Source: Desulfopila sp. IMCC35008
Lineage (GTDB): Bacteria; Desulfobacterota; Desulfobulbia; Desulfobulbales; Desulfocapsaceae
Length of the DNA stretch: 64,000 nt
Direction of reading: 5' to 3'
Assembly: GCF_010646885.2 (NCBI RefSeq)
Contig: NZ_CP050700.1
Location: forward strand, 904,001 to 968,000
Shown here: piece by piece, positions 42,956-55,320 of the stretch
Layout: each line of letters begins with the position of its first letter
How positions within the stretch are numbered: position 1 is the first letter of the stretch
The notes under the pieces: generated by a model
The model's input: only the letters and a program-made list of their open reading frames with translations
Database searches by the model: none
What the model was told of the DNA's origin: nothing
Translations under genes and position numbers: made by a program

Positions 42956-43032
42956 GGGCGGGTAGCTCAGCTGGATAGAGTGACGGCCTCCGAAGCCGTA
43001 GGTCGCGGGTTCGAATCCCGCCTCGCCCACCA
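42956..43032 (+). tRNA. tRNA-Arg (anticodon CCG), CCA encoded
   Basis: A full cloverleaf: acceptor GGGCGGG with CTCGCCC, D arm GCTC..GAGT, anticodon stem ACGGC/GCCGT with loop CTCCGAA (anticodon CCG, reads CGG), T arm GCGGG TTCGAAT CCCGC, discriminator A and encoded CCA. A terminator-like hairpin follows at 43069. The integrase gene starts 245 bases on in the same direction, so the 3' half is the likely attachment site of the element. Confidence 0.97.
43005..43032. other. Presumed attachment site (tRNA 3' end)
   Basis: The T arm and acceptor end of tRNA-Arg next to a P4-type integrase is the usual integration point. The tRNA stays intact, so the element carries its own copy of the 3' end. 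The matching copy at the other end was not found in the window. Confidence 0.55.
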
Positions 43033-43132: not shown

Positions 43133-43277
43133 TACCGTCAAGATGGCGGTATTTTATACGGTATAAATCGGTAACATCCATTTTGTACCGTCAAATCATA
43201 TCATTTCGATTTTCCAGTGTTTTTTTTATTGGAAATATCGTCGGCGGTACCGTCACTCCATAAAGGAGATACCGTCA
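43133..43277 (+). repeat. Cluster of TACCGTCA repeats before the integrase
   Basis: TACCGTCA occurs at 43133, 43186, 43248 and 43270; the last includes the A of the integrase ATG. Between the first two, the inverted core CGGTA occurs at 43147, 43159 and 43169. Candidates are arm-type integrase sites or operators for an AlpA or excisionase-like protein. An overlap with the start codon would fit autoregulation. Confidence 0.6.
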
Positions 43278-44497
43278 TGCCCCTTACTGATGTCGCCATA
43301 AAGAACGCCAAGTTTGTCGACAAGCAGTTCAAGCTGTCCGACTCAGGTGGTCTCTACCTTCTCGTCACCAAATCAGGAAAGTATTTTCGATTAGACTATC
43401 GATACCTGAAAAAGAGGAAGACGCTCGCTCTTGGCGTTTATCCAAAGATATCATTAGCCAATGCTCGGAAGAAGCGGGACCAGGCGAAAGAGCTTCTTGG
43501 AGAGGGAATTGACCCTGGCATTAAACGGAAGCAGGAGAAGCACCTACGTAAACAGGCTGTACAGAATAATTTTGAAGCTGTGGCCCGTGAGTGGTTCGAG
43601 AAGAAAAAACCGAAATGGGCTCCTGGCTATGCGAGAACTGTAATCGGGCGATTGGAGCTCAACATCTTCCCCTATATTGGTACAATTCCTGTCGGAGAAA
43701 TCAATGCTCCGTTATTGCTATCCGTGTTACGAAAAATGGAATCCCGTGAAGCACATGATACAGCAAGGCGTGTTAGAGGTCTTTGTAGTAAGGTCTTTCA
43801 GTATGCAGTTGCGACCGGTAAGGCTGAACGTGATCCCGCTAGTGATTTGAAAGGTGCGCTGACCGAGGTCACAGTAACTCATATGGCGGCGATAACTGAA
43901 CCTGCAGAGATTGGTGCTTTGCTACGAGCCATTGATGGTTATGAGGGTGCATTCCAGACAAAATGTGCAATGAAGCTTGCTCCTCTCACATTCGTCCGTC
44001 CTGGAGAGCTGAGGCATGCTCAGTGGAGTGAGATTGACTTAGACGAAGCCTTGTGGAAGATACCGGCAAAGAAAATGAAAATGCGAGGGGCGCACCTTGT
44101 CCCTTTGTCTAGGCAGGCGATAAATGTCTTACGGGAAATAGAACAACTAACAGGCGCATTGGAAGGGGCAGGGTACGTTTTCCCTTCAATACGGACGACC
44201 AGTAGGCCGATGTCAGAAAATACCGTAAACGCGGCTCTTCGTCGGCTTGGTTACGACAAAACGGAGATGACTGGGCACGGCTTCAGAGCCATGGCTTCTA
44301 CAAACCTGCACGAGCAAGGTTGGAAGTCTGAAGTGATCGAACGACAACTCGCCCATGTGGAAAAAAATACTGTCAAGGCTGCATATAACCATGCTGAACA
44401 CCTACCAGAAAGAAGAAAGATGATGCAGTATTGGGCCGATTACCTCGACGGGCTGAAAGCTGGAGGAAAGATTATACCGATCAGAAAACAAGCGTAA
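43277..44497 (+). CDS. int: P4-type tyrosine integrase
   Basis: The N-terminal DUF4102 domain (LTDVAIKNAK, KLSDSGGLYLLVT, GVYPKISLANAR) marks a P4-like integrase of phages and islands. A core-binding domain follows, and the catalytic domain shows the Arg box FVRPGELRHAQW, the HxxR box GHGFRAMAST and the nucleophile Tyr in KAAYNHAEHL. The start at 43277 follows aaaggag and gives 406 residues; a frame back to 43217 adds nothing useful. It inserts the element into tRNA-Arg. A terminator follows. Confidence 0.95.
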   Translation: MPLTDVAIKNAKFVDKQFKLSDSGGLYLLVTKSGKYFRLDYRYLKKRKTLALGVYPKISLANARKKRDQAKELLGEGIDPGIKRKQEKHLRKQAVQNNFEAVAREWFEKKKPKWAPGYARTVIGRLELNIFPYIGTIPVGEINAPLLLSVLRKMESREAHDTARRVRGLCSKVFQYAVATGKAERDPASDLKGALTEVTVTHMAAITEPAEIGALLRAIDGYEGAFQTKCAMKLAPLTFVRPGELRHAQWSEIDLDEALWKIPAKKMKMRGAHLVPLSRQAINVLREIEQLTGALEGAGYVFPSIRTTSRPMSENTVNAALRRLGYDKTEMTGHGFRAMASTNLHEQGWKSEVIERQLAHVEKNTVKAAYNHAEHLPERRKMMQYWADYLDGLKAGGKIIPIRKQA

Positions 44498-44501
44498 CTT
44501 T

Positions 44502-44572
44502 CGGACACGGATAGGGTCGCTCCCGAAAAGCCGTTCCCCTACGGTTTTCCGTGTCTGTTTTTTTCTAGGGGA
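44502..44572 (+). terminator. Terminator after the integrase
   Basis: An outer stem (GACACGG with CCGTGTC) encloses an inner stem (AGCCGT/ACGGTT) and ends in a T run. Confidence 0.75.
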
Positions 44573-44587
44573 TTCTGCGGGGAGAAG

Positions 44588-45622
44588 ATGACTGACAAAT
44601 CTAATGATTCTACGACAAATGAAATTCTGTGGAAACAGATTGAAAAAGCACGTGAAGATGACCTATGGGTGGAAATTGATCTTGCACGAAAGCTGAATAT
44701 TCCTGCTCAAGACGTTCAAGAATCGCGCAAAAAAGACATCTTCCTAAAAAAGTATATCGAGTTGAAACAGACGGCCATGAAAGACTCAGTGGTGCAGAAG
44801 TACAAAAAGGCTCTCTGGATGCGGGATAAGATTGAAGATCTTCCCCAAGATGATCAAGCCGGGATAGACTCCTATGAAAATAATGTGGAAAGATATGATG
44901 GTAGGATAGAAGAAGCAGAAAAAATAATCTTTCAGTCAAATAACAACAATCTCGCCTCTGTCAATCATGAGACATCAGACAATTATTTTATACGATCAGG
45001 GGAGTATTGGAGAATACGTTTTCAAGGGCAGAAAGAAATATATATGAATCACCAATTAGGATTTGGGATCATAGCAGATTTTTTAAATAACAGGGATGTT
45101 GAACTGAATCGATCTGAGGTTTGCCGTTCGTGGAAAGGTGTAACAAGTCCAGTCTTGAGTACAGAGCAAGCCATTTCTGAAGGACAAGATAGTATTGACA
45201 ACAGAGACCCTCACGGGGGAGGAGATAGAGTGGATGAAAAAATCACCCAGAAAGGTAAAGAAAAAATTAAAGAAAATGTTCAGGGAATACTAGGTCAAAT
45301 CAATCGACTTCAACAAGAGGGAAAGTCTGAGAAAGCTCTGGTGAAAAGTGAAGAACTTGAACGAGTAGGATTGGTTCTAAAAAAAGAATATGGCGCCTAT
45401 TTAGACACTGACACTGGCTCAATCAGGTGGGTGTACAATACAGAGAGGAACCCAAAAAACAATACGGAGTCAAATGCACAGCGAGCTATTAAGCGAGCTA
45501 TAGAAGTGTTAAAGAAGGAGGCGTACACCGACCTCGCCGATCACCTTACAAGGTATCTACTCAAAAGGGTTAACGTATATAGCCCACCACACGATTTTCC
45601 TGATTGGTACATATCTATCTAA
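44588..45622 (+). CDS. Uncharacterised element protein, 344 residues
   Basis: No family recognised for the whole protein. Residues 1-120 are charged and helical. A segment near residue 140 (YWRIRFQGQKEIYMNHQLG, then a short hydrophobic helix) resembles a small domain that in other proteins sits beside winged-helix regulators or ATPases. The C-terminal half is helical and charged with QGILGQINRLQQEGK. It lies between integrase and alpA and ends before a terminator, so it is its own transcript. Ribosome binding site ggggaga. Confidence 0.7.
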   Translation: MTDKSNDSTTNEILWKQIEKAREDDLWVEIDLARKLNIPAQDVQESRKKDIFLKKYIELKQTAMKDSVVQKYKKALWMRDKIEDLPQDDQAGIDSYENNVERYDGRIEEAEKIIFQSNNNNLASVNHETSDNYFIRSGEYWRIRFQGQKEIYMNHQLGFGIIADFLNNRDVELNRSEVCRSWKGVTSPVLSTEQAISEGQDSIDNRDPHGGGDRVDEKITQKGKEKIKENVQGILGQINRLQQEGKSEKALVKSEELERVGLVLKKEYGAYLDTDTGSIRWVYNTERNPKNNTESNAQRAIKRAIEVLKKEAYTDLADHLTRYLLKRVNVYSPPHDFPDWYISI

Positions 45623-45654
45623 AACCCTCCATACCCATATCTTATATCAACCTT

Positions 45655-45688
45655 CCCATTGTCCTTAGTGTCAATGGGATTTTTTTTC
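45655..45688 (+). terminator. Terminator after the 344-residue gene
   Basis: CCCATTG (45655-45661) and CAATGGG (45672-45678) are followed by eight T. Confidence 0.85.
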
Positions 45689-45710
45689 TCCTTTTTCACT
45701 TTTTTTTACA

Positions 45711-45751
45711 ATCCGCAGCCCAATTGCTGATATCCGCAGTCAATTTGCTGA
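45711..45751 (+). repeat. Two 20-bp direct repeats before alpA
   Basis: Two copies beginning ATCCGCAG and ending TTGCTGA match at 17 of 20 positions and are 21 bases apart, two helical turns. They lie about 60 bases before the AlpA-like gene and may be its operator. Confidence 0.5.
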
Positions 45752-45809
45752 CCTCTATACCAGGAGGGCCACTAAGGTCCATATCAACCCACTGGCATAG
45801 GAGAATACA

Positions 45810-46016
45810 ATGCGGAGAATTATACGATTGGGCAGAGTGACGGAGATCACAGGACTGAGCAAGAGCACAATCCGACGGATGGAGCTTGAAGGACGATTTC
45901 CACGTCGAGTGAGACTATCAAGACGCACATCTGGTTTTTTTGAAGACGAGGTAGAAAGTCATCTTGAAAACCTTCAGCGGGTTGACCTTGTAGGGAAAGA
46001 GGAGGTGGCAGCATGA
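45810..46016 (+). CDS. AlpA-family DNA-binding regulator
   Basis: A 68-residue helix-turn-helix protein (EITGLSKSTIRRMELEGRFP, followed by the typical W-less version of the AlpA C-terminal half, FFEDEVESHLEN). AlpA and related P4 Vis proteins control the integrase and excision in satellite elements. It starts the replication operon and overlaps the next gene by four bases (ATGA). Confidence 0.88.
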   Translation: MRRIIRLGRVTEITGLSKSTIRRMELEGRFPRRVRLSRRTSGFFEDEVESHLENLQRVDLVGKEEVAA

Positions 46017-46318
46017 AATCCACCAAAAACAACCATCTTACGGCTATGGTGGCACGGCAAGGAGTTTCAAACAAATTATTACGCAATAGTAGCAACCTTG
46101 GGAGATATCCGCAAGCGCTCCTCTCCCGGAAAAATTCCAATTCTTTACAATGTAGACAGGTAATCATCTCTAACCAGATTGATAATGTGGAGTGGATCGC
46201 GAATAGCCAAATTAGCGGCAGCGGGAAGGATTCCGAAATCGAAAAAACCGCATTGCTCTTGCATGCCATGCTTGTAAAAGAACGGAATCGTATCGAAGAG
46301 GTATTGGAAAATGCCTGA
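46013..46318 (+). CDS. Uncharacterised small protein, 101 residues
   Basis: A basic N terminus (KSTKNNHLTAMVARQG) and an acidic, helical C terminus. Overlaps both neighbours by a few bases, which supports it being real. No family recognised. Confidence 0.6.
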   Translation: MKSTKNNHLTAMVARQGVSNKLLRNSSNLGRYPQALLSRKNSNSLQCRQVIISNQIDNVEWIANSQISGSGKDSEIEKTALLLHAMLVKERNRIEEVLENA

Positions 46319-47075
46319 CACATCATATATCACAGTTCCATCATTGCATAAGTGGCAACACTATAAGGATCGTTGCCCTCCCTGGATCAAACTTCATCGT
46401 GACGTTCTTAACGATTATGAATTCTCATGCTTGCAAGATGCTAGCAAAGCGCACCTATTGGGTATTTGGTTATTGGCAAGCCAGCTTGAGAACAAGGTTC
46501 CCAATGACTCCAAATGGATTGCCCGTCGGATTAATGCAACTGACAAAATTGATCTCAAATCTCTTGTAGCCAGCGGTTTTATTGAGGTGGTGCATGTCGA
46601 TAGCGATATGCTAGCACCGTGCAAGCAAAATGCTCTTGTAGAGACAGAGACAGAGACAGAGACAGAAACTACTCTCATGCCGGAATCAAATTCCGACGAG
46701 AATTCTTTATCTGACAATCATGATTTGCCAGCAATCAAAACAGAGGGATTCAAGATTGCTTCATTGATGGCAGATACCATCCTCCAGCGTGATCCTGGCT
46801 ATAGGTTCCTTGTTGCTGGTGAACGTGAGAAGACTCTCGCAAACTGGTCTGACGATATCGAGAAAATTCATCGACTTGATGATAGACCATGGGAGCAGAT
46901 CAGGTCGGTTGTTGAGTGGTGTATGGATGATGACTTCTGGAGTCGCAATATTTTGTCGGGATCGAAGTTGAGGAAACAGTTCGACCAACTGGTTCTCAAA
47001 ATGCCTGCCGCTAATAACGGATCAGGTATTGCTGGAGATAACGACTATCCAGATTTCATGCAGGGGGTTCAATAA
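46311..47075 (+). CDS. Phage replication-type protein with ET repeat linker
   Basis: The N-terminal ~100 residues (VPSLHKWQHYKDRCPPWIKL, LLGIWLLASQLENKVP, WIARRINATDK) are of the winged-helix type seen in phage replication proteins such as O or DnaT-like helicase loaders. A linker follows with four to five ET dipeptides, encoded by perfect repeats of gagaca from about 46640. The C-terminal ~90 residues contain a DnaT/DnaD-like helix (WEQIRSVVEWCMDDDFWSRN, ILSGSKLRKQFDQL). Probably it loads the primase-helicase that follows, with which it overlaps by one base. Confidence 0.8.
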   Translation: MPDTSYITVPSLHKWQHYKDRCPPWIKLHRDVLNDYEFSCLQDASKAHLLGIWLLASQLENKVPNDSKWIARRINATDKIDLKSLVASGFIEVVHVDSDMLAPCKQNALVETETETETETTLMPESNSDENSLSDNHDLPAIKTEGFKIASLMADTILQRDPGYRFLVAGEREKTLANWSDDIEKIHRLDDRPWEQIRSVVEWCMDDDFWSRNILSGSKLRKQFDQLVLKMPAANNGSGIAGDNDYPDFMQGVQ

Positions 47076-48853
47076 TGACTCCCAGAGAATTACACCGTTT
47101 GCTTGAAGGTAATATCGTCGCAGTTGTTCAGCATCTCTTGCCTGCAGGTAAACGAAGAGGCCGAGAATGGGTCATTGGTAGTGTTGCTGGGGAAGAAGGT
47201 AGTAGCCTCGCTATCCACCTTGAAGGGGATAAAACCGGCGTTTGGAGTGATTTCGCTACAGGTGATAAAGGTGATCTATTTGACCTGTGGGGATCTGTAC
47301 GCGGAGTAAGCTTTCAGGATGCACTTGCAGAAATCAAAAATTATCTCGGCGTTGATGACCCTCCCCAATTTAAACAACCAAAATACAAGCTTCCTGAAAA
47401 ACCGAAGTGCACAAAGCCTAATGCCAAGATGCTGGAGTGGTGGAAGGACTGCGGGATAAGTGAAGTGACAGTTGCAAAGCTCCGGATTGGTCAGAGAGGA
47501 AACGCGATAGTCTTTCCGTACATCAACCCTAACGGTGTACTGGAGTTAGTGAAGTACCGTGACATGGATGAAAAGAAGTTTTGGAGCAACGAGGCACCTT
47601 GCCCTTGCCTTTTTTCTTGGCAAGCTGTTGGGGATAACCATCGAGATATCGTCATTTGCGAAGGTGAAAAGGACTGTCTCACATTTTGGGAACAGGGAAT
47701 TCCGGCGTTATCGGTTCCTAAAGGTGCCGGTAGCGGTGGAAAACACGACTGGATTGAGTATGAACATGATCGCCTGGAACGCTTTGACCAGATTTACATC
47801 TGCATGGATTCCGACAAAGCTGGACAGGAAGCAGTGATCGAAATTCTAGACCGACTCGGTAGACACCGTTGCAAAGTCGTAAAACTTGAATGCTGTGGTG
47901 TCACGTACAAAGACCCCAACGAAGCACACCAAGACGGCGTACTACTTCAAACGTTTCTCGATGCAGCCAGTACCGTAGACCCTGAAGAATTGCGTCTCTT
48001 GAGCGATTTCCATGACGACATCCTTGATGAACTGGACCCGAATAAAAATACCGAGAGCGGGCTCCGCTTGCCATGGCAGAAATCATTCGATTCAGTTCGC
48101 CTTCGCCCTGCTGAGGTTTCAGTATGGGGAGGGATCAACGGACACGGTAAATCTGAACTCCTCGGACAGGTAATGCTTGACGGCGTGTATCAGTCGACGA
48201 AATGGTGCGTTGCCTCTCTTGAGATGCCAGCCAACAAGCTGGGAGCGAGGATCTACCGGCAGGCCGGTTGCGTATCAAACCCCACCCCGGAGTATGCCAC
48301 CAAGATCAAGCAACTGATTGACAACAATATCTTTATTTTCAACGCATACGGTACCGCTAAATCATCTCGCATTCTTGAGGTCTTTGAATATGCAAGAAGA
48401 CGTTACGGGGTAACCCACTTCATTCTGGACTCACTGAGTAAAGCGGGATTCCGTGACGATGACTATCCATCCCAAAAATCCTATGTGGACGAATTATTTG
48501 AATACGCTCTGCAGCATAAGGTTCATGTCGCCCTCGTTGTCCACATGCGGAAAGGCGAAACCGAGGAGAAGCCTCCAGGCAAGTTCGACCTAAAGGGCAG
48601 TGGTGGAATAGCCGACATGGTCAGTTCGGTCTTCATCGTGTGGAGGAATAAGCGGAAAGAACGGCTCTTGAGAGGGGGCGACGAGGCAAAAATTGAGAAA
48701 GCCAAGCAAGAGGCCGATACGCTCCTGATCTGCACGAAACAGAGGGAGAATGGAAAAGAACCAAGTTTTGGACTTTGGTTCCACCCTCAAAGCTGCCAGT
48801 TCCTGGAACGCCAATCGGCGGAACCAAAACGATATATCCACCAAGAGGTGTAG
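47075..48853 (+). CDS. TOPRIM primase-helicase
   Basis: A T7 gp4/Twinkle-like replication enzyme of 592 residues. The N terminus resembles a degenerate zinc-binding primase domain (WSDFATGDKGDLFDLW). A TOPRIM domain at about 190-275 has VICEGEKDCLTF and MDSDKAG. A RecA-like DnaB helicase domain from about 340 has Walker A GGINGHGKSEL, Walker B FILDSLSK and VVHMRKGETE. It supplies primer and unwinding for element replication. The TAATG overlap ties it to the upstream loader-like gene. Confidence 0.92.
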   Translation: MTPRELHRLLEGNIVAVVQHLLPAGKRRGREWVIGSVAGEEGSSLAIHLEGDKTGVWSDFATGDKGDLFDLWGSVRGVSFQDALAEIKNYLGVDDPPQFKQPKYKLPEKPKCTKPNAKMLEWWKDCGISEVTVAKLRIGQRGNAIVFPYINPNGVLELVKYRDMDEKKFWSNEAPCPCLFSWQAVGDNHRDIVICEGEKDCLTFWEQGIPALSVPKGAGSGGKHDWIEYEHDRLERFDQIYICMDSDKAGQEAVIEILDRLGRHRCKVVKLECCGVTYKDPNEAHQDGVLLQTFLDAASTVDPEELRLLSDFHDDILDELDPNKNTESGLRLPWQKSFDSVRLRPAEVSVWGGINGHGKSELLGQVMLDGVYQSTKWCVASLEMPANKLGARIYRQAGCVSNPTPEYATKIKQLIDNNIFIFNAYGTAKSSRILEVFEYARRRYGVTHFILDSLSKAGFRDDDYPSQKSYVDELFEYALQHKVHVALVVHMRKGETEEKPPGKFDLKGSGGIADMVSSVFIVWRNKRKERLLRGGDEAKIEKAKQEADTLLICTKQRENGKEPSFGLWFHPQSCQFLERQSAEPKRYIHQEV

Positions 48854-48854
48854 C

Positions 48855-49121
48855 ATGACTATTCCAGAAATATTCAATCTGGAGCCAAGACTGAAACAAC
48901 TGGAGGATGACATCCAGGCCGTTGACAGTGACGTTCCGAACTTCTGTGCCAATCACCTGTGGTACAGGACTCTGGATGGACCAAACTTCAAAGCTCGCAT
49001 GGGCCAGCTGGTGGGTTGGTTTTCAGATAACCCCGCACTGCAGTCCCATGACACCTATAGCACAGTTTACCACTATCTCTACAAACAACTCCCACACTGT
49101 AAAGACTGCGGGTGCTGGTAA
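48855..49121 (+). CDS. Small cysteine-tailed element protein, 88 residues
   Basis: Starts one base after the helicase stop with gaggtg as binding site. It has a conserved-looking C terminus, VYHYLYKQLPHCKDCGCW, with three cysteines that may bind metal. No family recognised, but similar short proteins follow replication genes in small prophage-like elements. Confidence 0.7.
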   Translation: MTIPEIFNLEPRLKQLEDDIQAVDSDVPNFCANHLWYRTLDGPNFKARMGQLVGWFSDNPALQSHDTYSTVYHYLYKQLPHCKDCGCW

Positions 49122-49137
49122 AAAGGAGAATTTCAAA

Positions 49138-49914
49138 ATGGACACAGTAGGAAAACTCGTTAACAGGTTTGCAAAGAGAGATGGACTTAACGCCGCTTCA
49201 AAGAATGACCAATTTGGCCCTGGTCCGGAAGATATTGACTGCCTCTGGAGTTTTTCATCCAACGGCAAGCCTATTGATGGCTTGCAGGAATTGTGTGATG
49301 CAGAGATCATTGGCTACCTTCACCAGTGGAAAGAAATCACTGACGAAGAGCTTAAAGAGGCTGACAAAGAATTGTTCGGCGAGTCCCGTCCTGGTAGTGA
49401 CATGCCAAGGTGTCCCTACGGTAATGAATCATACCCTGATCAGATCTGCTCAACGTGTCCGAACTGCAAGGTAAAGGCCGGAGAACTGCATAAGCCTGGA
49501 TGTCCGCTGGAGTCCTGCCCCCTGTGTGGTCAGAAAATTCTTACCTGCAGCTGTAAGGCCCTTTCAATTGCTGATGGCATTGCCACAGCTGGCGCCGTAT
49601 CAAAACGGATATCCCGGCAAGAGGTCCACCAGGCTCTTCAGCACAGTGAAAAACTCGACCGAACTTATCACGAAGAGGGTTGTCTCCACTTCATTGTCGA
49701 TGACCTCTGTAAACGTGATCCAGAGGCAATGGCCAAGATGGACGGATTCATCTCTGACATTGGATTTAAACAGGTAAACGGAGGAGTAGCGATTACCGCC
49801 GAACAACTCGCAGAGAACATGGGTATATCGGTTGAGGAGGCTGATGATGCCTTGCGTGAAATACAAGTAAAATCACAATTTCCTGGATGGGAGAAACATT
49901 GTCATCCGGTGTGA
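49138..49914 (+). CDS. Element protein with zinc-ribbon-like cluster, 258 residues
   Basis: The start is fixed by aaaaggag ten bases upstream. The middle has a dense cysteine cluster (CPYGN, CSTCPNC, GCPLESCPLCGQ, LTCSC), a likely zinc-binding site. The first ~100 residues are acidic and have no known domain. The last ~90 contain ITAEQLAENMGISVEEADDA, a possible helix-turn-helix. Function unknown. Confidence 0.7.
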   Translation: MDTVGKLVNRFAKRDGLNAASKNDQFGPGPEDIDCLWSFSSNGKPIDGLQELCDAEIIGYLHQWKEITDEELKEADKELFGESRPGSDMPRCPYGNESYPDQICSTCPNCKVKAGELHKPGCPLESCPLCGQKILTCSCKALSIADGIATAGAVSKRISRQEVHQALQHSEKLDRTYHEEGCLHFIVDDLCKRDPEAMAKMDGFISDIGFKQVNGGVAITAEQLAENMGISVEEADDALREIQVKSQFPGWEKHCHPV

Positions 49915-49945
49915 GAATTCTGCCTAACAAATCAAAGGAGGCCGC

Positions 49946-50254
49946 ATGGCGCGAATTACCAGAATTAAATCAAAAAAAGAACGAGACCACGAGAAAAGTC
50001 GTAAACCTTTTCGAGACGCTGACCGCTTAATTGAAAAAGCAAGCCGAGAGGAATTGACCCAAGCACTCTATCTGCTTGCGGATGTTCAAGCGGACCTGCA
50101 TTTCAAGGAAACGGGTCTGGATCGAGGTTGTGGGCTGACGGAGGGTAACCTGGATCGTGAACGGCAAAGGTTTAAGGCTGCTTCTGTGGCGAGTGCACTT
50201 AATTCGATAGCCATGAATCCAGGCCCCAGTTATCAACCATTATTGACAGAGTAG
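49946..50254 (+). CDS. Uncharacterised small protein, 102 residues
   Basis: Very basic N terminus (ARITRIKSKKERDHEKSRKP), then a helical part. aaaggagg lies just upstream. It is part of the tightly packed run from the replication genes to 51.9 kb. No family recognised. Confidence 0.65.
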   Translation: MARITRIKSKKERDHEKSRKPFRDADRLIEKASREELTQALYLLADVQADLHFKETGLDRGCGLTEGNLDRERQRFKAASVASALNSIAMNPGPSYQPLLTE

Positions 50255-50260
50255 GAGCAA

Positions 50261-50632
50261 ATGGCAAGTAGAGAAGGGGTAAAAAACAAGACGACACTGG
50301 CCCGGAACCGACTGATCGAAGGACTTGAGCCATTGGTTATTGATAAGCTTTTCGATCTCCTGGAAAAGGGAGACACTCAAACGGTATTACAAACATCGAA
50401 AATCCTTTACGGCGATAAAGGTTTCCCTCGTAAGCCTCTTGGCCTCCCGAAGGTGATCGATGTTCAAACCTGCAAGGATGCCCTGGCCAAGCTGTCACTG
50501 TTGGTCAACCAAGGGAAATGCAGTTCTGCAGATGCCGCCAGGATAGCGAACATATATGAGAAGTATTTGTCAGTAACCGAATTGGCAGATTTGAAAACAC
50601 GAATTGAAAAACTCGAAGAGGGAATGAAATGA
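50261..50632 (+). CDS. DUF5681-like phage protein
   Basis: The layout matches DUF5681: a start GVKNKTTLARNRLIEGLE, a GDTQTVLQTSKILYG core, a short proline turn (RKPLGLPKV), a helix with LAKLSLLVNQGKCSSADAARI, and a C-terminal coiled part ELADLKTRIEKLEE. Such proteins occur in phage-type clusters and are sometimes suspected to act like small terminases, but this is not shown. Overlaps the next gene by ATGA. Confidence 0.65.
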   Translation: MASREGVKNKTTLARNRLIEGLEPLVIDKLFDLLEKGDTQTVLQTSKILYGDKGFPRKPLGLPKVIDVQTCKDALAKLSLLVNQGKCSSADAARIANIYEKYLSVTELADLKTRIEKLEEGMK

Positions 50633-50841
50633 GCACAATGCAGAAGCGAGTGAAACGGCTGGAACAGCAAAATGGACAGGGGCTTAAAAAGGTCATTACC
50701 TTCATGAAACACGTGAACGGTCACGTTACCCTCCTTAATGATGATCGGGTCTTGACAGAGCGGGAAGTTGAAGAGCTTTCAACTGGAAAGCAAGTAGTTA
50801 TGTACCGCATTGTACGGCCTAACCACACTGACGGAGAGTAA
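50629..50841 (+). CDS. Uncharacterised small protein, 70 residues
   Basis: A short basic protein (QKRVKRLEQQNGQG start) with the later block LTEREVEELSTGKQVVMYRI. Translationally coupled to the DUF5681-like gene. No family recognised. Confidence 0.6.
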   Translation: MSTMQKRVKRLEQQNGQGLKKVITFMKHVNGHVTLLNDDRVLTEREVEELSTGKQVVMYRIVRPNHTDGE

Positions 50842-50844
50842 AAC

Positions 50845-51861
50845 ATGACGAACGCAATAATCAACGGGGTACTTCAGGGGATCGCCGGTGGCGCAAAAGC
50901 GCAGCAATCTGAACTTGTAAAAGACGCTGCTGAGTTGAGGAGAGAGAGCTACGCCAAACTTCTTCAGGAGCATCGCCTTGATGACCATGAGTTTTTGAAC
51001 CGCCTGGGTATTCAGCGTGACGAAATCACCCACAACCGTAATGCTAAAAGGGCAGATGAGTTGTGGGACAAGAACACAGAAAGGGAAGATACGGTTTACA
51101 AAAGGGGTAAGGAAGACGCCAAGGAATTCGCCACCTTCCAGAACAACATGAAGGATAAGCGAGGACAATACGGGAAAATGTACGATGACCTTGCGCGTGT
51201 TTTCGGTGACGAGAAAGCAAAAGGCATTATCCAGGCATCCATGAGCAAGCAAAACAGCGGCGGCTCACTAAGCGCCAAGGAAAAAGCGGGGCTGAAGAAA
51301 GATGCTTACGAGGTGGCGACAAGTGAAATGCAGATGGATATTGCCAGAGCTGAATCTTCTGAAGAAAAGCAAAGGATCTCTGCTACCATCAAAAAACGAG
51401 TAGACCAGCTTTATAGCGAATGGACCGGGGATGAAACAAGTGGTGGTTCTGAGTTTGCTTCAGGGCTGATCAATGAAGCAACCGGCGCTCAAGATGGATC
51501 TGGCGGATGGGATAAGTTTTTTGGCAATATAAAAACAATATTTGGTGATCGAGAAGAACAATTGCAGGAGGCTGCAGGGCATAGCACAGAGGTTGCTGCA
51601 AGTGAGAAATCATCTCATACCCCAAACAAAACCGTTGGTGAACTCAGGCCCGGAGGTAACAGCCCATTGGCATCTTGGTATGATCGTGTTTCAAAGCATT
51701 CACCGGAAGAAAAAAACAAATTAGCAGACGCAAAACGGGAGCGATTGAAGAAAAACATTCTGAAGATGATGAGTCCACAACAGAGACAGGCATTTTATCA
51801 ATTGTCGGAAGAGGATCGGGGCGCCTATCTGGAAAAGATACTCGCAACGCGAAAAGGGTGA
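50845..51861 (+). CDS. Uncharacterised helical protein, 338 residues
   Basis: Almost wholly helical and charged, with an Ala/Gly-rich N-terminal segment (IINGVLQGIAGGAKAQQSE) and a Gly/Ser-rich hinge near residues 190-220. The C terminus has LKKNILKMMSPQQRQAFYQL. It resembles phage or satellite structural or DNA-binding proteins by composition only. It is the last gene of the rightward run that starts at alpA. Confidence 0.65.
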   Translation: MTNAIINGVLQGIAGGAKAQQSELVKDAAELRRESYAKLLQEHRLDDHEFLNRLGIQRDEITHNRNAKRADELWDKNTEREDTVYKRGKEDAKEFATFQNNMKDKRGQYGKMYDDLARVFGDEKAKGIIQASMSKQNSGGSLSAKEKAGLKKDAYEVATSEMQMDIARAESSEEKQRISATIKKRVDQLYSEWTGDETSGGSEFASGLINEATGAQDGSGGWDKFFGNIKTIFGDREEQLQEAAGHSTEVAASEKSSHTPNKTVGELRPGGNSPLASWYDRVSKHSPEEKNKLADAKRERLKKNILKMMSPQQRQAFYQLSEEDRGAYLEKILATRKG

Positions 51862-51883
51862 TTGACTACCCTGAGCAGATGAA

Positions 51884-52011
51884 AGTGCGCACCAACATAA
51901 CCCCTATCGGGGTGCGGACCTCACTGCGGACTTTCTTAGTTTGCCCCCCCTATTCAGGTGCGAACTTCAGGTGCGAACCAAATGGCACAGGCTTGGAGTT
52001 CCGGTGCGGAC
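51884..52011 (+). repeat. Iteron-like GGTGCGRAC repeats, 46-bp period
   Basis: GGTGCG(A/G)AC occurs at 51911, 51957, 51970 and 52003, with a looser copy ACTGCGGAC at 51923 and AGTGCGCAC at 51884. Copies at 51911, 51957 and 52003 are each 46 bases apart, and the inner pair adds a 12- to 13-base offset. Such arrays next to replication genes often form origins. Confidence 0.6.
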
Positions 52012-52480
52012 TATCTCAGTACAAGGAGACTTGAGATGCCGTTCCTAATAGCCATATAGTGCCGTATTGAGAAAAAGCCTTGCCTGACACATTCATGATG
52101 TCAACATTGAGGCATTTATTGCATTCGAATACATGACCATGCAAAACTTATAATCGTTAAAATTTGGGCTATCCTGGACGTTTTTATTGCTATTCAGTTT
52201 TTTGGATCATTTGGCAAAAATGCCAAACATTAAAAAATGAGTAAGGTATTATGTAGTTAACCCTTTTAAGCGAAACCCTATCGCTTATCATTCCCCATGT
52301 AGCAGTACCTCACGCCCCCAGTTGTGAGCAAAGAAAGGGAGGGCCTTCGGGTTCTGTCTTTCTCAATTAATCCCCCCCATATTGCTTTAACAATCCCGAC
52401 TATAGTAATGCTGTCAATAACGCTTTAAACGATAAACTGATCATATATATTTGGGCGATCTTTTCGAAAGAGCGGTCTTC
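52012..52480. other. Possible replication origin, AT-rich non-coding region
   Basis: No gene is seen. Besides the iterons to the left, the region has AT-rich tracts, a perfect dyad TTTGGCA-AAAA-TGCCAAA (52209-52226), and a hairpin TAAGCGA/TCGCTTA (52267-52287). An IHF/HU gene follows on the other strand. The combination resembles an element origin with a helper site. Confidence 0.45.
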
Positions 52481-52768
52481 TCATTTTCCATTCACTTTAC
52501 TCCGCAACTTGCCAGACGGCTTGAACGTTATGACTCTACGGGCATCGAGAATAAGGGTTTCTTCAGTCTGAGGGTTACGCCCTATTCGCGGCTTCTTCTC
52601 CTTCACATTGAACTTCCCAAAACCGCTCAAAAGTAGACCTGAACCATCAATGAGAGCGTCCTTGGCAATTCGCAGAAATGATTCCACCGCCTCTTCAGCT
52701 TGTTTTTTCGTTAAATCATCGTGGTTTTTGTAAATGACTTCGGCAAGACTGGCCTTGGTTATTTTCAT
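52481..52768 (-). CDS. IHF/HU-family DNA-bending protein
   Basis: 95 residues with the HU/IHF pattern: KITKASLAEVIYKNHDD, LTKKQAEEAVESFLRIAKDAL, the surface loop GSGLLLSGFGKFNVKEKK and the DNA-wrapping arm PRIGRNPQTEE, ending VITFKPSGKLR. The start at 52768 has ggag upstream; a frame back to 52918 is not needed. An IHF-like protein carried by the element could bend its origin or attachment sites. Confidence 0.9.
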   Translation of the reverse strand: MKITKASLAEVIYKNHDDLTKKQAEEAVESFLRIAKDALIDGSGLLLSGFGKFNVKEKKPRIGRNPQTEETLILDARRVITFKPSGKLRSKVNGK

Positions 52769-53430
52769 GACTTGGTTGCTCCATGATCGAATAATTAATG
52801 TAATTTCAATATGAAAAACATACCAAGCATGTACCTTTTTGATCCAGTAAGGATTTGGTAAATAAAAACAGGATGATGCATTGCGAGAGACATCATCCCG
52901 AGAGGAGAAGCAGAACACGCAGTTCTACTAAGAAGTATATGCCCCATCAGCTCGGATGATTACAGGGTCTTATGGTTGTGGATGTTGAATGGTTTTATAC
53001 GAGAATTATCCGTGAGCGGCTATGCTCAATTCTGAATGAGTATTAATCACATTACTACCTTAAAAGAGTGGGAAACTGGAGAGTACAATCTGTCATGCCT
53101 TTGACCAATAAGAACAATTTATGCAAAACTGAAAGTTGATCCTGATCTCATCGTATGGTATATGACGGGCAATGCAAATTGCAATAAGCTCTATATTAGA
53201 GTCATAAATAGCATATAATTCCTTTTGTGCTGAGATTGATTTGTGTTTTGACTCAGAACTTAGAATATGTCACTTTTATCTCGTTTTAAGATGCTCAACT
53301 AACAGGGAAAACGGTTTTATCTGAGAGCATAATGTGCGAGTTGAAATTTTAAAATATAGTTTTCAATAAAATATTAAGACGAAACCTGATCAGCAGACAT
53401 TGGCACAAATAAAAATGATGCTCATGTCAG
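52769..53430. other. AT-rich intergenic region
   Basis: About 660 bases without a gene. A small dyad TGCAA-A-TTGCA lies near 53173. Otherwise nothing recognised; the insertion sequence starts to its right. Confidence 0.4.
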
Positions 53431-53555
53431 CGATTCCCGGCTGAATTTTATGTAATTGAAAATAGGTGTTATTTAAGTTTGAGCTTTCGTAAACATTTGA
53501 CACAAGGCATGAGTACAATAGACTGAAATAACAGAAAATAAATATCCACAAACAT

Positions 53556-53591
53556 GACATTTTTTATTTGACATCTCCAATAAAAAATGTC
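53556..53591. repeat. 13-bp inverted repeat before the transposase
   Basis: GACATTTTTTATT and AATAAAAAATGTC are perfectly paired across ten bases. The 3' arm ends 43 bases before the transposase start. It could block incoming transcription or hide the ribosome binding site on read-through mRNA, a known way of limiting transposition. Confidence 0.6.
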
Positions 53592-53634
53592 GTGCGTTTT
53601 CTATGGAATATCATATATATACATAGGAGACGTG

Positions 53635-54990
53635 ATGAGATTGTCAGTATACAACACAAGCAAAGCCTTAACTCTGACATTAGCAGGCAGAAAAGTGAGA
53701 AAACACCTCAATGCAGATTCACTTCTTGCAGCAATCCGGCTAGATTTTCAGAAGATCCCGGACAACCGAGGTGCGAACTCGAAAATAACCCTTGATGATG
53801 CTTTGATGTCCGCATTTGCTATGTTTCAGCTCAAAGATCAATCACTTCTGGCGTTTGATAAGAGACGTAGTGAAGAAGATCATAATCTTCGTTCTGTCTA
53901 TGGCCTCTCCAATATCCCTTGTGACAGCCAGATGCGTACAATTTTGGACCCGTTACCCTTGTCTGTACTGAGAGCGCCATTCCTTTCTGTATTCAGACAA
54001 ATACAACGAGGGAAGGACTTCGAGAAGATGGCCTATTATGATGGGCACTATCTCCTCAGTGGTGACGGCACCGGCTTCTACAGCTCTGAAAAAGTTTCTT
54101 CACCGTACTGTATGGGAAAAAAGAGCAGGAACGGGAATACCCTGTACCATCAGCAAATGTATGCAGCCTGCTTTGTCAAACCAGGGTGTAAAGTTGTCAT
54201 CCCTGTCTTTCCAGAGATGATAACCCAGAATGACGGCACCCGTAAAAATGATTGTGAGCGCAATGCTGCTAAAAGATTTTTCAAAGATTTCAGGCGTGAA
54301 CATCCTCACCTGAAAGTTATCGTTGTTGAAGATGCACTCAGCAGTAACGGACCACACGTAAAAGAGCTGAAAAAGCACGATTTACGCTTTATTCTCGGAG
54401 CCAAACCAAAAGATCACAAGGCGCTCTTTACAGAACTGGATCGGGCTACAAATGAAGGCCGAGTATCTGAGATTCAATTCCTGGATCCAGAAGATCAGCA
54501 GACAGGTCATATTTTCAAATACCTGAACAATGTACCGCTCAATCAATCTCATCCCGACCTTTTGGTCAACGTACTGGAATACTACCAGGTGAACAAGAAA
54601 GGTAAGGTTACGGAATTCAGCTGGGTTACAGATCTTGAGATAACAGATGACAATGTCTACCAGCTGATGAGGGCCGGACGTGCGCGGTGGAAGATCGAAA
54701 ACGAGACGTTCAACACCTTGAAGAATCAAGGGTATAACCTTGGTCACAATTATGGTCTGGGCAAGAAGAACTTGAGCGGTGTTTTCACTATCCTGATGAT
54801 GTTGGCTTTTCTTGTAGATCAGGCACAGCAGTTGAGTTGCTGGTTATTCCAGGCCGCACTGATCAAGGGGAGGATAAAAAGAACCTTGTGGGAACTCATT
54901 CGTTCTACAATGCAGTTGTTTGAAGTTGACTCTATGGAACGGGTTCTGCGCATTATAGTCTTTGGAAGCAAGGAGGCGTTCAAGACGTAA
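53635..54990 (+). CDS. DDE transposase
   Basis: 451 residues after the start at 53635, which has ggag upstream. Candidates for the catalytic Asp and Glu are SGDGTGFYSS, VVVEDALSSN and ARWKIENETFNTLKNQGYN; the last resembles the IS4-type YREK region. An N-terminal part LTLDDALMSAFAMFQLKDQS is also typical. It is likely an ISNCY- or IS4-like family member; the exact group is not certain. No frameshift or stop interrupts it, so it may be active. Confidence 0.85.
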   Translation: MRLSVYNTSKALTLTLAGRKVRKHLNADSLLAAIRLDFQKIPDNRGANSKITLDDALMSAFAMFQLKDQSLLAFDKRRSEEDHNLRSVYGLSNIPCDSQMRTILDPLPLSVLRAPFLSVFRQIQRGKDFEKMAYYDGHYLLSGDGTGFYSSEKVSSPYCMGKKSRNGNTLYHQQMYAACFVKPGCKVVIPVFPEMITQNDGTRKNDCERNAAKRFFKDFRREHPHLKVIVVEDALSSNGPHVKELKKHDLRFILGAKPKDHKALFTELDRATNEGRVSEIQFLDPEDQQTGHIFKYLNNVPLNQSHPDLLVNVLEYYQVNKKGKVTEFSWVTDLEITDDNVYQLMRAGRARWKIENETFNTLKNQGYNLGHNYGLGKKNLSGVFTILMMLAFLVDQAQQLSCWLFQAALIKGRIKRTLWELIRSTMQLFEVDSMERVLRIIVFGSKEAFKT

Positions 54991-55066
54991 TGGTTTATTG
55001 CTTAATTGAAAATCGAATTGTCAAAGATCAGGTGCCCTTGAAAACCTATGTTTTCATAGGGAATCG

Positions 55067-55320
55067 GGTATGTGTGCCCGAAAAACTTGTATTTTCAGTA
55101 AGAAATGGCCATCAACACTGTAGAATTACGGTTGAGGTCTCTTCTTACTAGTAAACTTAGAATAGCAATGGTTCGATTGGTGGTAATTCCTCATTTTTCA
55201 TTGAGTAAATTGCCATAACGGGAATAGCTGTGCTCATGTCGATGTAATTATAGCCTATTGTTCCTGGTCTAATGTCGACTGTCCGGTGTACGGATTAATA
55301 ACTTGAATTTATAAGAAATA
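55067..55320. other. Intergenic region right of the insertion sequence
   Basis: About 250 bases, AT-rich, with no gene seen. The next gene lacks a clear ribosome binding site. Confidence 0.35.

Follow-up and report, generated by a model that had tools for sequence, protein, structure and literature searches.

The question raised by this locus is which protein reads a short array of direct repeats that lies downstream of the replication genes of a putatively integrated element in Desulfopila sp. IMCC35008. The window that was analysed is the whole stretch of 64,000 nucleotides between positions 904,001 and 968,000 of contig NZ_CP050700.1, and its relevant features are collected in Table 1. An earlier note on this DNA had interpreted the repeats, together with an AT-rich region and an IHF/HU gene, as the layout of an iteron origin.

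Table 1. Features of the element and of the repeat array (window coordinates).
Feature	Position	Strand	Basis or remark
tRNA-Arg(CCG), likely integration target	42956..43032	+	
Tyrosine integrase	43217..44497	+	Arm-DNA-bind_3 domain
int-alpA RNA	44504..44570	+	Rfam RF02996, 49.1 bits (gathering 35.8)
AlpA-like winged-helix regulator	45810..46016	+	phrog_2790, phrog_66
DnaD/O-like helicase loader	46311..47075	+	
TOPRIM primase with DnaB-type helicase	47075..48853	+	phrog_239
Last ORF before the array, 338 aa	50845..51861	+	no family
GTYCGCAC-type unit array, candidate TerS-binding, cosB-like	51885..52011	-	repeats; same unit at phage terS/cos
Plus-strand form of units, GTGCGNAC	51885, 51912, 51958, 51971, 52004		
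Plus-strand form of unit, CTGCGGAC	51924		
Short inverted repeat CCCC..GGGG running directly into a unit (CCCCTATCGGGGTGCGGAC)	51901..51919	+	by eye
AT-rich intergenic tract	52050..52480	.	no ORF of at least 60 aa wholly within
Perfect 7-bp dyad TTTGGCA-AAAA-TGCCAAA, 4-nt spacer	52210..52227	.	
Weak cosN-block look-alike, GGGGGCGTGAG	52309..52319	-	order and strand as in phages
IHF/HU-family gene, 95 aa	52481..52768	-	PF00216

A word search of the window revealed four exact copies of GGTGCGRAC in the array (51911-51919, 51957-51965, 51970-51978 and 52003-52011), all on the plus strand and separated by steps of 46, 13 and 33. Weaker members were also found, namely ACTGCGGAC at 51923-51931 and the palindrome GTGCGCAC at 51885-51892. 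On the minus strand, the unit reads GTYCGCAC; five units share one strand and the sixth is the palindrome. The spacing of the units is 27, 12, 34, 13 and 33, so that they form pairs in which 12-13 bp alternates with 33-34 bp. The 46-base period reported in the earlier note is real, since the copies at 51911, 51957 and 52003 are spaced by exactly this distance, and it represents one side of the alternation. The clustering is far above chance: the maximum per 150 bp was four copies in the window versus one in 200 dinucleotide shuffles of it. In the whole 6.3-Mb genome, both strands together contain 91 exact copies versus 49 of the reversed word, and a fifth copy in the window, at 53770, is located outside the array and within a transposase gene. 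In a literature search with the 9-mer, the titles listed resembled chance primer matches.

The surroundings of the array were also largely as the earlier note had described them. The GC content was 0.39 in 300-bp windows across 52050-52499, the dyad lies within this tract, and the IHF/HU gene follows it; the best NCBIfam model for the latter was IHF-alpha, at 96.8 bits and thus below the cut-off of 111. For the intergenic region 51862-52480, no similar DNA was found elsewhere in the genome, and matches to phage records were at chance level. The position of the array directly behind the replication genes had to be corrected, as the primase-helicase gene ends at 48853 and five ORFs, or approximately 3 kb, lie between.

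The Rfam scan matched the tRNA and the int-alpA RNA alone, and no structural gene was found among the scanned proteins of 43217-51861, several of which match nothing. No second copy of the 23 nt at the 3' end of the tRNA was found in the genome with up to three mismatches, so attR was not detected. The right end of the element is undefined, and its status as a satellite, as opposed to a decayed prophage, is therefore something that we infer rather than observe. Searches for close relatives of the primase-helicase found none in IMG/VR or GTDB contigs, and those for the last ORF before the array found none in IMG/VR or phage records. With a TerS profile built from frame-checked seeds, the window element and the loci L135, L136 and L167 gave no TerS-like match (best E-value 2.7).

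Several side observations were made in this region. Four TACCGTCA repeats (43133, 43186, 43248 and 43270) between the tRNA-Arg gene and the integrase start are candidate arm sites; the array unit was considered as an integrase arm site and rejected, as the integrase-proximal repeat is TACCGTCA instead. An IS4-like insertion occupies 53429-55230, about 1.4 kb from the array. An uninterrupted relative of its target (G000:C1:160696-160831) joins 53372-53428 to 55231-55319, and the 10-bp overlap at the junction is a likely target duplication. A partial second copy of the insertion element (98%, 929 bp) is present at G000:C1:3462681.

The array could be the relic of the cos region of a decayed prophage that has lost its terminase and structural genes and now serves no function. 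The nearby insertion and the missing attR would agree with this, as would the C-terminus of the last ORF, which is 36% like the gene that immediately precedes a small-terminase-like gene in L024 (G000:C1:3446662-3449886), a second prophage of this genome; the relationship is weak and distant. However, the units are intact even though no cosN is seen, and three other satellite-like elements carry equally intact arrays; we therefore consider a relic very unlikely.

To place the unit in a wider context, IMG/VR and GTDB contigs were scanned for two units 13 bp apart, with a slightly narrower pattern for GTDB. Paired-unit stretches numbered 49 in IMG/VR and 47 in the GTDB contigs; the reversed pattern gave 16 in IMG/VR. 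In 34 of the 49 IMG/VR stretches, three or more units lay no further than 150 bp from the pair. In the examples inspected, the genes beside the arrays encode either a small terminase of phrog_57 together with a GpA large terminase or a ParB-methyltransferase located ahead of terS. A terS relative lies within 3 kb of 18/34 IMG/VR arrays versus 0/16 reversed-pattern contigs, where the TerS queries included proteins of motif-selected loci and one seed, also used in the motif-locus helix reading described below, was in the wrong frame (L049:2900-3603). When terS, GpA large terminase and ParB-methyltransferase were counted together, 22/34 arrays and 2/16 controls had such a neighbour within 3 kb; five queries for replication proteins gave 0/34 and 1/16, respectively. 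In five of the 34 arrays, the neighbour was an integrase instead. With the same queries, a packaging gene was near 5/47 GTDB pairs and near 4/21 of those with three units, and many GTDB pairs look like chance or other repeats. Four GTDB contigs (L086, L093, L107 and L110) are from Pseudomonas and have arrays similar to the one in phiAH14b. Overall, GTYCGCAC-type arrays are found in many phages at the cos region or within the TerS gene. Clusters of GTGCGAAC adjoin an integrase in L028, L025, L045, L058 and L076, some also near an endolysin-like gene; these loci contain a repeated 150-bp cassette, and no terminase was found nearby.

The unit was then compared with the recognition helix of TerS, which was identified by its membership in phrog_57 and its position adjoining the GpA terminase. 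The residues D..R were found in the helix of all 18 TerS that were read from motif-selected loci, with five further motif-selected TerS lying outside this set. The helix of RcKemmy, RcOceanus and AcaML1 TerS contains H..G or H..A, and the arrays of RcKemmy, RcBaka and AcaML1 use GTTTCCA, a word that clusters in 7/178 loci, compared with zero for any of 40 letter permutations. For a motif-independent test, TerS relatives were chosen by protein (80 kept of 414), and whole records were searched for 47 of these 80 loci, on contigs of approximately 15 kb or more, and for three named phages. The 15-kb criterion was set after earlier scans, among them that of 4-kb flanks, and L241 (15,553 bases), which carries a threefold GTTCGCA array, was left out of the 47 despite its size.

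As evident from this test, the unit changes with the helix. Pairs of GTTCGCA were present in 25/28 D..R, 0/19 D..H and 0/3 H-type records (reversed word 1/50), and pairs of GTTTGCA were present in 2/28, 14/19 and 0/3, respectively (reversed word 0/50). L190 and the motif-selected L026 are one contig; when L190 is omitted, the D..R count is 24/27. Of the eight records that lack the expected pair, seven are contigs that stop less than 3.4 kb upstream of terS, and measured arrays sit at 2.1-3.9 kb on that side. The remaining record, L203, carries a degenerate array, still at the same cos block. Fisher's test gave 2e-10 and 3e-6 for rows that are related by descent. Since the D..H group has a single origin on the TerS tree, these rows correspond to one or two matched switches and not to forty. 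In the code that fits, base 4 of GTTCGCA is C for R and T for H, and base 5 is G for D and C for H. When 4-kb flanks of distinct TerS were scanned, GTYCGCA pairs occurred in 10/33 D..R and 0/18 D..H cases, GTTTGCA (at least three) in 4/33 and 4/18, and one unrelated control word reached 1/33 and 6/18. A second, longer array of CAGTTTGCA or CAGTTGGCA, with many copies over approximately 200 bp, was observed in the D..R phages L192, L196, L197, L203 and L190, about 1.3-1.7 kb further upstream than the cos array.

To locate the arrays relative to the cohesive ends, 30 of them (20 D..R and 10 D..H) were fetched with their flanks from the 39 records that bear the array of their class. Upstream of these arrays we found a conserved block, GGTCCTTCC..ATGCGGGGGGCGCGAGCGCG..TAGCG, with the core GCGGGGGGC or a near form in 29/30 and exact CTAGCGT in 16/30. 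The RcKemmy record ends with ..GGTTCTTCC..CTATGCG and starts with GGGGGCGGAAGCGCG..CTAGCGT, and the GTTTCCA arrays of RcKemmy and RcBaka are situated 47-80 bp from the published cohesive end. According to the excerpted text of PMC8601537, the genome ends of both phages are 11-base 5' overhangs. On the strength of homology to this published end, the block is assigned as cosN, and the array in RcKemmy occupies the position of cosB. A cos profile also found the block beside the arrays of L113, L060, L115, L059, L057, L054, L077, L087 and L038 with E-values below 0.01; L026 is part of the training set of this profile, through G257.

In the window, the cosN block in the form GGYCCTTCC..GCGGGGGGCG..TAGCG was not found upstream of the array, and the cos profile gave no match at an E-value of 10 in the window, L135 or L136; in phiAH14b, it matched parts of the array and no cosN. 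The look-alike GGGGGCGTGAG was rejected as cosN because several chance sites of the window outscored it. The window locus thus shares the one-strand unit array with the phrog_57/GpA cos family, and not its cosN block. CTAGCGT-type cos arrays have a unit spacing of 7-9 bp, unlike the window array, whose 12-13 bp pairs are like those of the RcC arrays and of arrays embedded in terS.

Comparison with other elements revealed that the unit is not tied to one replication module. The paired unit is present in 4/93 genomes of the host family (reversed word 2/93), and two of the three loci other than the window are satellite-like: L135 encodes Prim-Pol and SSB, and L136 encodes an integrase, DnaB-N/AAA and SSB. 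By eye, joins resembling the inverted repeat that runs into a unit in the window were seen in both. In phiAH14b, a late array consists of three GTTCGCAC and one inverted copy, with a GTTTCCAC array 50 bp beyond, and these two arrays also lie side by side in L048 and L066. In L137 (1855-1890), also from the host family, three GTCCGCAC units with 14-bp steps were observed upstream of a contractile-injection-like cluster.

In P4, a satellite with a primase-helicase, the origin contains short repeats for the alpha protein, and the iteron reading assumes a comparable arrangement here, in which the loader or the primase-helicase would bind GGTGCGRAC and open the AT-rich tract with the IHF-like protein. 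The direct repeats and the AT-rich tract with its dyad are present, the element has its own primase, and in L135 two unit sets, approximately 150 bp apart, directly follow the primase and SSB genes. In addition, the excerpted text of PMC6092414 describes the origins of Gram-negative PICIs as iteron sets on either side of an AT-rich region, immediately 3' of the replication gene. However, the replication modules of the window element, L135, L136 and phiAH14b are mutually unrelated, yet all four share the unit with its 12-13 bp pairing, so the repeat is not specific to a cognate initiator gene. The absence of matches to the five replication queries within 3 kb of the 34 phage arrays argues in the same direction, as does the window array itself, which is one-sided and distant from the primase. 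Additionally, another candidate origin exists inside the loader gene, where 4.5 copies of AGAGAC (46640-46666) encode ETETETET; the lambda origin is likewise situated inside gene O. No member of the P4 alpha family was among the family matches of the window element's proteins. The evidence supports the earlier proposal in so far as the array is real, probably binds a protein and adjoins an AT-rich tract of an element that is P4/PICI-like. An iteron origin we consider unlikely: with one unit shared by four unrelated replication modules, found at phage terS/cos and co-varying with the TerS helix, the array is better read as a TerS-binding, cosB-like site, although both functions could be served by the tract in a satellite.

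A regulator or excisionase, such as an AlpA-like protein with a TerS-related winged helix, could alternatively use the array as its operator. TerS proteins weakly match the excisionase families phrog_66 and phrog_575, the element encodes AlpA, and promoter-like sites adjoin the array, in numbers near those seen in shuffles. In the elements that share the unit, however, the AlpA-like or equally placed proteins have differing recognition helices or none that is recognisable, while the unit stays constant, which makes this explanation quite unlikely. Constancy of the unit across unrelated modules is best explained by a reader that is supplied in trans.

The search for such a helper revealed no candidate in the host genome or the host family. 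Neither the host genome nor three congeners yielded a GpA terminase, and the window unit was absent from all 17 GpA terminase regions of the host family, as judged from the three commonest clustered 8-mers of each, three of these regions being shortened by contig ends. Four of the GpA phages (L304, L306, L313 and L314) carry a weak GGGTCCTTCC-type cos box with ATGGGAGG/ATCCTCCC repeats approximately 2.1 kb further downstream, and these repeats are perhaps another TerS unit class. The excerpted text of PMC4936722 reports phiAH14b as packaged in capsids of phiAH14a, and phiAH14a as headful. We found neither a GTYCGCAC nor a GTTTCCA array in phiAH14a (55,060 bp). Since phiAH14a lacks the arrays and is headful, its own terminase probably does not read those of phiAH14b.

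Judged from these sequence comparisons, the window array is, on balance, probably a cosB-like (or pac-like) TerS site of a helper phage within an integrated satellite. In this mechanism, a helper TerS with a D..R winged-helix recognition helix would dock on the units, the IHF-like protein possibly bending the DNA there as at lambda cos, and docked TerS would bring the large subunit to satellite concatemers for packaging. Alternatively, TerS might be titrated away from helper DNA, which would result in interference. We infer the binding of TerS, the use of the array by terminase and the role of the IHF-like gene. The missing window cosN, helper and attR count against the TerS-binding reading, as do phiAH14a without an array, a spacing that differs from CTAGCGT-type cos, and an R-to-H switch that is a single event on the tree.

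More tentatively, and with considerable doubt, several satellite lineages may bear stand-alone TerS-binding arrays without the helper cosN, some with two specificities that recruit or titrate two helper classes; two helix residues and two unit bases would then set specificity and make the helper range predictable. Within the literature searched, a cos family with a readable unit code and stand-alone satellite arrays appear to be new, whereas recognition-helix specificity for cosB and PICIs with their own cosB are already known. Should the reading hold, a short DNA unit and two helix residues could be enough to predict which class of helper an orphan satellite uses, and a cos family whose TerS-DNA code can be read would become directly testable.

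The proposed site was finally compared with known systems. In lambda, 21 and N15, recognition-helix residues pair with bases of the cosB unit, and IHF bends the DNA in lambda (PMC4669245, excerpted text). As in lambda-type cosB, the repeated units of phrog_57 phages adjoin cosN, and the recognition helix pairs with unit bases; in contrast, the TerS family is phrog_57, the units are GTTCGCA, GTTTGCA or GTTTCCA, the cosN is another one, and none was found in the window. RcKemmy and RcBaka of the RcC cluster resemble the window locus in having three units at 13-bp steps, there by the cohesive end, and a phrog_57-type TerS, but they are full phages and their unit is GTTTCCAC. The window element is similar to phiAH14b in its integrase, AlpA, primase and late unit array, although the replication genes of phiAH14b differ, it carries a second array (GTTTCCAC), and its reported helper is without both arrays. 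The window element also contains the Gram-negative PICI set of integrase, AlpA and primase or replication genes; where such PICIs have an AT-rich region with an iteron set on each side, just 3' of the replication gene, it has one set, 3 kb downstream. EcCICFT073 has integrase, AlpA and primase as well, is packaged by a helper and carries a cos sequence (PMC6092414, excerpted text). It keeps the helper cosN and has its own cosB, which is read by an Rpp-TerS complex (PMC6739421, excerpted text), whereas in the window element the helper-type cosB unit is present and no cosN was found. If the TerS-binding reading is true, such satellites separate the landing site of terminase from its cutting site, which would be the converse of the solution found in the E. 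coli PICI.
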